Assembly (NCBI GenBank): GCA_003569245.1
Contig: BGOM01000019.1
Span: 62,001 to 126,000, forward strand
DNA length: 64,000 nt
Source: Opitutia bacterium
GTDB taxonomy: Bacteria > Verrucomicrobiota > Verrucomicrobiia > Opitutales > UBA953
Reading direction: 5' to 3'
The stretch's first letter is position 1. Each line of letters begins with the position of its first letter. The translations under genes and the position numbers were made by a program. This document shows, one piece after another, positions 53,910-58,312 of this stretch. The notes below the pieces were generated by a model that did not search any database, was not told where the DNA came from, and saw nothing but the letters and a program-made list of their open reading frames with translations.

Positions 53910-54278
<369 letters not shown>

Positions 54279-54330: not shown

Positions 54331-55260
54331 CTATTTCACCGGACGCACCAACACCAGCGAACTGCAACGTTCGGCTGGGATCCACCGAATCGTACCCGGG
54401 AGCCGGGGCGCGAAGTAATTGTCGATCACGCCGACGAAGCGGGCGCCGGCGATCTCGGCCTGCCCGACGGCCACGACTTCATGGCCCCAGGCGAGCTCCG
54501 GCTTGCGCGGGACGAGCACGATGCACGAGACGAGCGCCGGTCGGCCGACGGCAAGTTCCTCCGCCAAGGTTTCGGGCCGGAACGGGGCTACCGTCACGCG
54601 CACGGGGATGCGATACTGGTCGGCGTCTTCCTGCAGACCGACGGCCAGGGAGCCGGGGAAACAGCCCGCCAGCGCCATCTTGCCGTCGGTGTAGCCTTCG
54701 GTATCCGCGATGACGGACATGGGCAGTCGGTCGCGGACGCGGCGAACGAGCCCCTCATGACTATCGTCCGCCTGCCAGTCGAAGGTGCCGCGATTGGACC
54801 AGTAAGCGATCAGGCTCGCGCCCGCGGTGGGCACGCAACCCGAAGCGACGACCTGCCCGCCCGCGCCTTGAATCGGGAACTGCTGGATGGCCGGCACCCC
54901 GCCCAAGGCCAGCACCTGCGGGAGGTCGATCGCGACGAGGCCTTCGAGCGAGAAGTCGAGGAGTCCGCGGTCACCGCTCTCGCGCCACGCGAGGTAGCCC
55001 GCGGATCCCTCGGGACCGGTGAGCTCAGCCCACCAGAACGGCTCGCCAGGCGCGGACCAACGCGTGGCGACCGGGACGATGCGGCGCACCTCGCCGAGCC
55101 GCGTCTGCGCGCGCGCCCCCGCCAGCAGGCCGCATCTTCGCAGGTATTCGAGATGCGCGCGCCCGTCGGCGACCGGCCGCGATTGGAAGGGCCACCACGT
55201 CAGCAACGACAGCAACAGGCCCGCGGCCAGGAGGGTCGTCAGCAGCAGACCGCGCTTCAT
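54331..55260 (-). CDS. putative exported C39-like cysteine peptidase
   Basis: A 309-residue protein with an N-terminal signal anchor (about 4-24), from an ATG chosen because it begins this segment. 'VASGCVPTAGASLIAYW' (Cys142) looks like the nucleophile block of C39-like peptidases. 'WGHEVVAVGQ' (His, about 264) and 'VIDNYF' (Asp/Asn, about 281) could complete a papain-type triad. The family includes bacteriocin-leader peptidases and lone secreted proteins of unknown role. No transporter or toxin gene is attached. It stands alone on the - strand between tmRNA and the structured RNA. Confidence 0.62.
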   Translation of the reverse strand: MKRGLLLTTLLAAGLLLSLLTWWPFQSRPVADGRAHLEYLRRCGLLAGARAQTRLGEVRRIVPVATRWSAPGEPFWWAELTGPEGSAGYLAWRESGDRGLLDFSLEGLVAIDLPQVLALGGVPAIQQFPIQGAGGQVVASGCVPTAGASLIAYWSNRGTFDWQADDSHEGLVRRVRDRLPMSVIADTEGYTDGKMALAGCFPGSLAVGLQEDADQYRIPVRVTVAPFRPETLAEELAVGRPALVSCIVLVPRKPELAWGHEVVAVGQAEIAGARFVGVIDNYFAPRLPGTIRWIPAERCSSLVLVRPVK

Positions 55261-55407: not shown

Positions 55408-55438
55408 TTGACAACCCCGGATCGGATAGGCATATATC
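55408..55438 (+). promoter_or_regulatory. promoter of the structured RNA
   Basis: A perfect TTGACA (55408-55413) is followed by TATATC (55433-55438) with 19-base spacing (ATATAT with 18). It is one of the best -35 boxes in the window and lies in DNA that is more AT-rich than its surroundings. Confidence 0.6.
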
Positions 55439-55444
55439 ACTACA

Positions 55445-55606
55445 GTTGAATTTAACTCGGAAGGCGCGTCCCTTATAAAGGATGCATAAGTCGCGAGGGC
55501 GACTAACGGTAAGAAGATAATATTCCCCGTCACCGACCCCAGAGCGCGGTAGCTATCGCTCTGGCACCACTTCAAAGACGATCTCCCCCGAGGTCGTCTT
55601 TTTTGT
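55445..55606 (+). ncRNA. unidentified small structured RNA (independent sRNA or leader of madL)
   Basis: About 160 nt between a good promoter and a strong terminator, not recognised as tRNA, SRP RNA or a familiar riboswitch. Stem-loops are visible at 55466-55485 (GCGTC(C)CTT / AAGGATGC), 55489-55504 (AGTCGC-GAGG-GCGACT) and 55539-55564 (CCAGAGCG / CGCTCTGG, 8 bp perfect, 10-base loop), followed by the terminator. A 12-codon frame (55482-55520, MHKSRGRLTVRR) begins at an ATG inside the first hairpin but has no usable Shine-Dalgarno spacing. The madL ATG lies 66 bases past the terminator, so it could act as an attenuating leader for malonate uptake genes. Confidence 0.6.
55574..55606 (+). terminator. 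intrinsic terminator of the structured RNA
   Basis: A 12-bp stem AAAGACGATCTC / GAGGTCGTCTTT (one T-G pair) with a CCCC loop, ending in T6. It is one of the strongest terminators in the window. Confidence 0.88.
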
Positions 55607-55671
55607 TAACCCACGTGGCTCGCTCCGCGTCTTTACACGGCAAGGCTTCGGGATTGAGTAGACGGACCCCT

Positions 55672-56052
55672 ATGACCCTTTACGGCACGACCTTGCTGGC
55701 GGTTTGCCATCTCCTTGGCATCCTCTTCGGAGAGTTGCTCGGACGCGCCCTCGGCGTCCAGGCCAACGTCGGCGGAGTCGGCATCGCGATGCTGTTGCTG
55801 ATCTCGGCCCGCCTCTACGGCCATCGCCGCGGCTGGCTGGATGCCAAGAGCGAGGAAGGCGTCCATTACTGGGCGGCGCTGTACATCCCGGTGGTCGTCG
55901 CGATGGCCATGCAGCAGAACGTCCTCAAAGCCCTCAGCGGAGGCCCTATGGCCCTGCTGGCCGCGGTCGCGACCGTCGCGGCCGGCGCCGGCTGCGTCGC
56001 CTTCATCAACCGCGACGAACCGGTCTCGCCCTCCGGACAAGCCCCGAAGTAA
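55672..56052 (+). CDS. madL: malonate transporter subunit MadL
   Basis: A 126-residue membrane protein with four hydrophobic segments. 'YGTTLLAVCHLLGILFGELLG' and 'IAMLLLISARLYGHRRGWLD' match the MadL family, the small subunit of the sodium-dependent malonate carrier first described in Malonomonas rubra. The chosen ATG begins the first membrane helix; a longer frame from 55603 would add an unlikely polar extension. It ends 6 bases before madM. A weak TTTACA box (55632-55637) may give it a promoter of its own in addition to read-through from the RNA upstream. Confidence 0.86.
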   Translation: MTLYGTTLLAVCHLLGILFGELLGRALGVQANVGGVGIAMLLLISARLYGHRRGWLDAKSEEGVHYWAALYIPVVVAMAMQQNVLKALSGGPMALLAAVATVAAGAGCVAFINRDEPVSPSGQAPK

Positions 56053-56058
56053 GCCGCC

Positions 56059-56832
56059 ATGGAATCCCTGCTGCAAAAGCTGGCCGTCGAGAACGGCCTG
56101 GTGCTCGCCTTCGCCGTCGTCGGCCTGGTCGTGCTGTTCTCGGGCGCCGTCTCCCGCCACCTGACCTTCGGGCGCATCCAAGGCTCGGCCATCGCCATCC
56201 TGCTCGGCCTCGTCCTGGCCTATGTCGGCGGGCGGATGACCGGCGGGAGCAAAGGCCTGGCGGACCTGACCTGCTTCGGCGGGCTCGCCCTGATGGGCGG
56301 CACCATGCTCCGCGACTTCGCGATCGTGGCCACGGCGTTCGAGGTCCAGCCCGCCGAGGCCCGGCGGGCCGGCTGGATCGGCGCGACGGCGTTGCTCATC
56401 GGGACGTTCCTGCCCTTCGTCATCGGCGTGGCCGTCGCCTACGCCTTCGGCTACCGCGATGCCGTGAGCCTGACGACCATCGGCGCCGGCGCCGTCACCT
56501 ACATCGTGGGCCCCGTCACCGGCACCGCCATCGGCGCGTCCTCCGAGGTCATCACGCTCGCGATCGCGATCGGCGTCTTCAAGGCGATCCTGGTGATGGT
56601 GACCACCCCGATGCTGGCCGGCTTCATGCGCCTGGGCACCCCCCGCTCGGCGATGGTCTTCGGCGGCCTGGCCGGCACGGTCAGCGGCGTCTCCGCCGGC
56701 CTCGCCGCCACCGACCGCAAACTGGTGCCCTATGGCGCGCTCGTCGCGACGTTCCACACCGGCCTGGGTTGCCTGCTCTGCCCTTCCCTCCTCTACCTCG
56801 TCATCCGCGCCCTGTTCCCCGCCCATGCCTGA
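56059..56832 (+). CDS. madM: malonate transporter subunit MadM
   Basis: A 257-residue polytopic inner-membrane protein. The blocks 'FGRIQGSAIAILLGLVLAY', 'GGLALMGGTMLRDFAIVATA', 'GAVTYIVGPVTGTAIGASS' and 'VFGGLAGTVSGVSAGLAATD' are characteristic of MadM, the large subunit of the malonate:Na+ symporter. Together with MadL it should import malonate. Its last codons overlap the start of the acyl-CoA synthetase gene by 8 bases, so uptake and activation are translationally coupled. Malonate decarboxylase genes (mdc/mad), the usual partners, are not in the window. Confidence 0.9.
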   Translation: MESLLQKLAVENGLVLAFAVVGLVVLFSGAVSRHLTFGRIQGSAIAILLGLVLAYVGGRMTGGSKGLADLTCFGGLALMGGTMLRDFAIVATAFEVQPAEARRAGWIGATALLIGTFLPFVIGVAVAYAFGYRDAVSLTTIGAGAVTYIVGPVTGTAIGASSEVITLAIAIGVFKAILVMVTTPMLAGFMRLGTPRSAMVFGGLAGTVSGVSAGLAATDRKLVPYGALVATFHTGLGCLLCPSLLYLVIRALFPAHA

Positions 56833-58312
56833 GCTCCCGCCCATCGCCCGTGCCCGTGGGCACGCCGGCTCGATCGCCTTCCGCACCCCGCAAGGCGTCA
56901 CCACTTACCAGGAACTGCTCGACCGCTCCGCTTCCCTCGCGACGACCCTGCTGGCGGGCGCGGCGGATCTCCGGGAAGCGCGGGTCGCCCTCCTCGCTCC
57001 GGCGGGACCGGACTACGTCGCCGCCCAGTGGGGCCTCTGGCGCGCCGGCGGCGTCAAGGTGCCGATCTGCCTGACGGCCACCGAGCCCGAATGGGAATAC
57101 GCGCTCACGGACAGCGGTGCCTCGGCCGTGCTGGCCGATGCCGCCAGCGCCCGGCGGATCGCCCCGCTCTGCGCCCGGCTCGGGCTTCGGCTGATCGACA
57201 TCGAGGCTCACGCCGGTCCCGCCGGGAGCCTGCCCGAACTCACGCCGGCCCGCCGGGCGATGATCCTCTACACCAGCGGCACGACGAGCAAGCCGAAGGG
57301 CGTCGTGACGACCCATGCGCACATCGCCGCGCAGATCGGGAGCCTGATCCAAGCCTGGGCGTGGCAGCCCTCCGACCGGATCCCGCTCTTCCTGCCGATG
57401 CACCATATCCACGGGATCATCAACGTGACGGGGTGCGCTCTCTGGGCGGGCGCCTGCATCGAAGCGTTCGCGAAGTTCGACCAGCCGGCCATCCTCGCCC
57501 GGGTCCGGGCCGACGCCTACACGCTCTTCATGGCCGTGCCGACGATCTACGTGAAGCTCATCCAAGCGCTCGAGGCGGCCGCGCCCGCCGAACGCACCGC
57601 GCTCGTCGCCGGGTTCGCCCGGATGCGGCTGATGGTCTCCGGCTCCGCCGCCCTGCCCGCGAGCGTGCATGAGCGATGGACCGAGCTCACCGGGCAGCGG
57701 CTGCTCGAACGCTACGGCATGACCGAGATCGGCATGGCCCTCTCCAATCCGCTGCACGGCGAACGGCGCCCCGGTGCGGTCGGGCAGCCCCTGCCCGGCG
57801 TGGAGGTCCGCCTCAAGTCGGAGCACGGCGAGATCGTCACCGCCGAGGATACCCCCGGCGAGATCCAGGTGCGCGGCCCGAACGTCTTCACGGAATATTG
57901 GGGCAAGCCCGCGGCCACGGCGGAGTCCTTCGAGGCCGACGGCTGGTATCGCACCGGCGACATGGCGGTCCGGGAGCGCGGCTACTACCGCATCATGGGC
58001 CGGCTCTCCGTCGACATCATCAAAAGCGGGGGCTACAAGCTGTCGGCGCTCGAGATCGAGGCCGCCCTGCTGGAACATCCGGCGATCGCGGAATGCGCCG
58101 TGATCGGCCTGCCGGACGACACGTGGGGCGAGGCGGTCAGCGCCGCGGTCGTGACCAAGGACGGGGCCGAACTAGGGCTGCCCGCGCTCCGCGAGTGGTG
58201 CAAATCCCGGCTCTCCGTCTACAAGGTGCCGCAACGGCTGGTGGTCGTGCGCGAGCTCCCCCGGAACGCGATGGGCAAGGTCACCAAACCGGCGGTCCGA
58301 CAGCTTTTCTGA
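56825..58312 (+). CDS. matB: malonyl-CoA synthetase (MatB / ACSF3-like)
   Basis: A 495-residue AMP-forming acyl-CoA synthetase. 'MILYTSGTTSKPKGVVTTH' is the ATP loop. 'LMVSGSAALPASVHERW' with 'LLERYGMTEIGMALSNPL' is very close to the malonate-specific MatB and ACSF3 enzymes, and 'RELPRNAMGKVTKP' holds the catalytic Lys. It should turn malonate, ATP and CoA into malonyl-CoA, the fatty-acid building block. The ATG at 56825 is chosen over an earlier open-frame start because it matches the family N-terminus. The overlap with madM supports the assignment. Methylmalonate is a possible second substrate. Confidence 0.88.
   Translation: MPELPPIARARGHAGSIAFRTPQGVTTYQELLDRSASLATTLLAGAADLREARVALLAPAGPDYVAAQWGLWRAGGVKVPICLTATEPEWEYALTDSGASAVLADAASARRIAPLCARLGLRLIDIEAHAGPAGSLPELTPARRAMILYTSGTTSKPKGVVTTHAHIAAQIGSLIQAWAWQPSDRIPLFLPMHHIHGIINVTGCALWAGACIEAFAKFDQPAILARVRADAYTLFMAVPTIYVKLIQALEAAAPAERTALVAGFARMRLMVSGSAALPASVHERWTELTGQRLLERYGMTEIGMALSNPLHGERRPGAVGQPLPGVEVRLKSEHGEIVTAEDTPGEIQVRGPNVFTEYWGKPAATAESFEADGWYRTGDMAVRERGYYRIMGRLSVDIIKSGGYKLSALEIEAALLEHPAIAECAVIGLPDDTWGEAVSAAVVTKDGAELGLPALREWCKSRLSVYKVPQRLVVVRELPRNAMGKVTKPAVRQLF

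Follow-up and report, generated by a model that had tools for sequence, protein, structure and literature searches.

A stand-alone small RNA gene was found on the plus strand at positions 55408-55605 of the window, which is the whole stretch of 64,000 nucleotides that was analysed, taken from the 2.45 Mb genome of an uncultured member of the Opitutales. The RNA forms a new family within a well-known kind, the stand-alone small RNA. The family appears to be undescribed, since it is absent from Rfam 15 and no description was found in the literature searched (open-licence papers). Its identity as a conserved non-coding RNA that stands on its own is held with high confidence. This agrees with the sequence-only reading of the same DNA, which had proposed an undescribed stand-alone sRNA, and the proposal is now supported by the RNA's own -35 box and terminator, its conservation across a genus, the missing Rfam match and the changing neighbours. 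Judged from the genome comparisons, the RNA is vertically kept and single-copy within one Opitutales genus of freshwater-lake bacteria. The family is ready for use as a covariance model and comes from an abundant lineage of freshwater bacteria, in an order that is apparently Hfq-free, and it provides a concrete object for studying small-RNA action in Opitutales.

The RNA gene and its conserved core

The gene consists of a promoter box, a core of ~125 nt and a terminator. It lies inside the gap of 411 bases that had been described between the start of a minus-strand ORF (55260) and the ATG of madL (55672). The features of the locus are the following.

55408..55413, plus strand: -35 box TTGACA (alignment of 32 loci)
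55431..55436, plus strand: probable -10 element CATATA, 17-nt spacer (position and alignment)
55466..55485, plus strand: hairpin 1, GCGTCC-CTTATAAA-GGATGC (alignment A3, pair counts)
55489..55504, plus strand: hairpin 2, AGTCGC-GAGG-GCGACT (alignment A3)
55506..55530, plus strand: hairpin 3, ACGG ... CCGT (alignment A3, folding)
55534..55540, plus strand: C-rich linker CGACCCC between hairpins 3 and 4 (alignment A3)
55539..55564, plus strand: hairpin 4, CCAGAGCGCGGTAGCTATCGCTCTGG (alignment A3, double changes)
55574..55605, plus strand: intrinsic terminator, 12-bp stem and T6 (terminator scan)
55672..58312, plus strand: madL-madM-AMP-binding acyl-CoA synthetase (matB-like) operon (PF03817, PF03818, PF00501)

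The perfect TTGACA box of the earlier reading was recovered as a conserved element: in 32 aligned loci each position of the hexamer was 91-100% conserved, compared with mostly 40-80% for the flanking bases. The box is found at an equal distance from the RNA in all full-length loci, with the exception of the L045/L046/L047 clade. The -10 element CATATA is poor and an automatic promoter scan of the locus returned nothing; in relatives, the alignment places CATAAC, CACAAC or AATAGT at this position. For the RNA we infer a 5' start at about 55442. At the other end, the 12-bp terminator with T6 was detected as had been claimed, with a 12-pair stem at 55574-55601, the T6 at 55599-55604 and a distance of about 67 bases to the madL ATG. 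This type of terminator is confined to the window species and its near-identical sister, and the 3' hairpins differ in other clades. In two loci (L030 and L068), hairpin 4 and the T-rich stretch that follows it score as a terminator by themselves. As an independently transcribed gene, the RNA would be about 125-165 nt in length, and with its own predicted promoter and terminator it would be independent of the neighbouring genes.

The minus-strand ORF upstream of the RNA (54334-55260) had no Pfam match; by eye only, its motifs CVPTAGASL and, later, GHEVVAVG recall C39-like cysteine peptidases. A tmRNA gene with the tag AKNTITFENDNVLALAA is located at 53910-54276 of the window.

The region 55441-55608 folds with a minimum-energy z of -3.3 against dinucleotide shuffles, 1 out of 200 of which was equally stable. 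When the terminator was left out, z was -2.3 and 3 out of 200 shuffles were equally stable. A structured region had thus been recognised correctly by the sequence-only reading, although not its number of stem-loops, as the comparative alignment revealed a conserved core of four hairpins in place of three. The structure alignment (A3) was built from 42 full matches, corresponding to 29 distinct sequences; three opposite-strand matches that covered only the self-complementary hairpin 4 were left out. Among the 29 sequences, 98.6% of the pair cells were standard pairs, versus at most 40% when the partners were slid by 1-3 columns, and the stems were found to be kept in close relatives.

The four hairpins differ in how they are conserved. 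Hairpin 4, with its conserved loop GTAGC, retained pairing in 5 of 9 pairs in which both sides had changed, and its double-change cells amounted to 28 against a shuffle mean of 7.6. In the most distant homologue (L068), AGAG...CTCT is replaced by AGTACAA...TTGTACT with preservation of the helix. Hairpin 1 has a conserved CUYAKAAA loop and is almost invariant, so that covariation says nothing either way, and in hairpin 2 every base, stem included, was identical in 29/29 distinct sequences. Because both are invariant, helices 1 and 2 are unproven by covariation. Hairpin 3 is backed by folding; its outer stem is kept and has no double changes, and the sequence of its inner stem varies by clade. 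The linker CGACCCC was likewise invariant in all 29 distinct sequences, CGACC being unpaired and the last CC opening hairpin 4. Close homologues in 37 species-level genomes of the genus, together with the covariation of hairpin 4, indicate that the RNA is more than chance.

Two other interpretations of the locus were rejected. A closing helix between the core ends was predicted in L030 and L046 and was unsupported by the strand-swap and shuffle controls. A protein-coding gene was discarded, since the window copy has stops in each of the three frames and clades differ by single-base indels.

Occurrence within one genus

By blastn, similar DNA was detected in 31 of 57 relatives, every one of them belonging to the same genus. 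The covariance model R1 located the RNA in 37 of the 55 genomes of this genus (the GTDB genus containing Opitutia bacterium UBA953), a count that leaves out weak matches in G267 and G275, which were judged to be chance after reading. Among genus genomes with a completeness of at least 90%, it was present in 16 of 22. Models R1 and R2 were run over order, family and phylum. The covariance model gave no RNA in 24 genomes from four other genera of the family, and in the 223 order genomes and 387 phylum genomes sampled only genus members were retrieved, besides two chance matches; these order and phylum scans used strict filters with few candidates scored per genome, and strongly diverged relatives could therefore escape. 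Six further weak matches (L069, L070, L135, L136, L156 and L159) were read or aligned to the model and discarded as unrelated, mostly coding sequence. A DNA pattern run over 84,980 species genomes returned 38 contigs, mostly metagenome-assembled, which were named Opitutae, Opitutales, Opitutus or Verrucomicrobia/-ota; the label Akkermansia muciniphila carried by one of the 38 is probably wrong. As to a phage, plasmid or viral origin, no trace of the RNA was found in IMG/VR viral contigs, phages or plasmids.

There is usually one copy per genome. Several draft contigs end in or beside the RNA (G007 C43/C112, G032 C88/C126, G004 C106/C129 and others), which results in apparent double copies; these are probably assembly breaks at a sequence common to co-occurring species.

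The RNA was not found in four small-genome members of the genus (G172, G218, G272 and G018; 1.4-1.5 Mb, at least 93% complete), nor in the larger members G151 and G271. The absence from these six genomes suggests loss or strong divergence.

Possible mode of action

The RNA would be transcribed from a sigma-70-type promoter and released by intrinsic termination, after which it would persist as a stable folded molecule acting in trans. It may then pair with mRNAs through its exposed invariant segments, namely the CUYAKAAA loop, the GAGG loop, the CGACCCC linker and the GUAGC loop, in a Hfq-independent manner. Base-pairing regulation is the mechanism that we favour, at somewhat better than even chances. 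Most stand-alone bacterial sRNAs base-pair with mRNAs, and the preference is based on these general grounds and not on direct evidence. When seeds and duplexes were tested at 274 translation starts (about 430 kb from one species, and underpowered), no convincing target signal was obtained, and the top 7-mers fell partly in the non-conserved tail of the RNA. Hfq (PF17209) was absent from the host genome and 37 relatives, 38 order genomes in total, and 5 of 14 control genomes contained it; any pairing would therefore be Hfq-independent. The whole order Opitutales may lack Hfq, as 0/38 of the genomes searched had PF17209.

The main competing explanation is a protein-binding or housekeeping-type RNA, whose core is recognised by a protein that is sequestered or guided, with no mRNA pairing. 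The invariance of hairpin 2 including its stem, a core densely packed with hairpins, the single copy per genome and an order in which no Hfq was found are all in line with it. Nevertheless, the RNA is missing from 6 of 22 high-quality genus genomes and from all other sampled genera, a distribution uncommon among housekeeping RNAs, and this explanation is considered distinctly less probable than pairing, although a serious contender. The invariant segments, which are presumably exposed, are candidate pairing or protein-contact sites, and the invariant stem of hairpin 2 would suit a protein-binding site equally with a pairing site. In a bolder version, the four hairpins, with hairpin 2 invariant, would define in a Hfq-free branch of the phylum a new class of compact regulatory RNA that binds a protein or ligand and acts through this partner, instead of an antisense sRNA; we regard this as rather improbable.

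For the preferred base-pairing sRNA, the closest analogy is offered by Yfr1 and Yfr2, lineage-specific trans-acting sRNAs that are almost universal in cyanobacteria (PMC6778093, PMC1242208). Like these, the Opitutales RNA is a short stand-alone RNA gene with conserved single-stranded motifs, found by comparative genomics and retained throughout a single lineage of small-genome aquatic bacteria. In contrast to them, it is longer, has four hairpins and is restricted to one genus. Yfr1 and Yfr2 are a good analogy and not relatives.

Neighbouring genes and known RNA families

Five genomic contexts of the RNA were distinguished altogether. In the commonest one, a Vut_1 transporter gene lies upstream of the RNA, which is followed by a convergent tRNA-Leu(UAA) and then trpA. 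Further downstream neighbours are a gene for an FAD oxidoreductase, aspS and a short-chain dehydrogenase (SDR) gene, and only in the window species and the near-identical G014 (L048) are madL and madM found 3' of the RNA. A same-strand gene starts roughly 65-100 nt downstream in four of the five contexts, as would be expected of a general cis-regulatory element, such as a riboswitch, acting on whichever gene follows. However, the genes that follow are unrelated to each other (malonate transport, FAD oxidoreductase, aspS, SDR), the next gene in the commonest context is the convergent tRNA-Leu and genomes carry essentially a single copy, which makes such an element very unlikely. In the same way, the RNA resembles orphan riboswitch candidates and leader RNAs in being a structured RNA that a terminator separates from the transporter operon on its 3' side, and differs from them in that its neighbours are not conserved and its commonest context is a convergent tRNA gene and not a same-strand one.

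An equally small chance is given to the possibility that the RNA belongs to a known family and is too divergent for Rfam to recognise. Opitutales are thinly represented among curated families, which counts for this explanation. With the 4227 families of Rfam 15, no match at gathering score was obtained for the RNA locus, and a permissive cmscan (E<=10) yielded one chance match there and likewise chance matches only at the loci of three relatives. This bears out the earlier statement that the RNA is not SRP RNA, tmRNA or a common riboswitch, and the suggested Rfam check for 6S RNA or any other family gave no match at the locus. A divergent 6S, tmRNA, SRP or RNase P RNA was discarded, each of these being located elsewhere in the same genome: SRP RNA on contig C11, RNase P RNA at C19:142399 and the tmRNA gene in the window. 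The 6S RNA model (RF00013) had no match at the RNA locus; it had two 6S-like matches on other contigs of the host genome (45.4 bits, versus a gathering score of 46.4), and 20 relatives had a match above the gathering score. The Opitutales RNA shares with 6S RNA a stand-alone structured nature and a similar length. It lacks the long closing stem with a central bubble, and a separate 6S match is present elsewhere in the host genome and most relatives. The two equal-scoring matches (C13:640-803 and C24:182097-182260, 45.4 bits each) could stem from a duplication or from an overlap in the assembly close to the C13 start.

The least probable explanation, to which hardly any weight is given, is the premature-termination leader or riboswitch of madL-madM-matB, sensing malonate or malonyl-CoA, that had been put forward by the sequence-only reading on account of a terminator-ended RNA upstream of madL on the same strand. 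The RNA adjoins madL in just 2 of 37 RNA-carrying genomes, those of the two near-identical species, and 12 genomes have madL with no RNA in front. Across the genus, madL was detected in 14 of 55 genomes: in 2 it is adjacent to the RNA, in 9 it is on another contig and in 3 it occurs without a detected RNA, and in 26 genomes with the RNA no madL was detected. As many of the genomes compared are incomplete drafts, single absences are weak; in the complete-looking G057 and G163, the RNA and madL are on different contigs. The RNA core was not found in the regions upstream of the other madL genes, and this, together with the distribution of RNA and madL, excludes a conserved malonate leader. Directly 5' of madL, TTTACA-17-TGAGTA is a possible promoter of its own. 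As far as the sequence comparisons go, the madL-madM-matB-like operon is a neighbour only and lies outside the RNA system, and a tempting but wrong malonate-riboswitch annotation is removed. In two other species (L149 and L150), a terminator-like hairpin and a TTGACA were observed about 47 bases 5' of the madL ATG, which suggests a short leader and a separate promoter for madL there.
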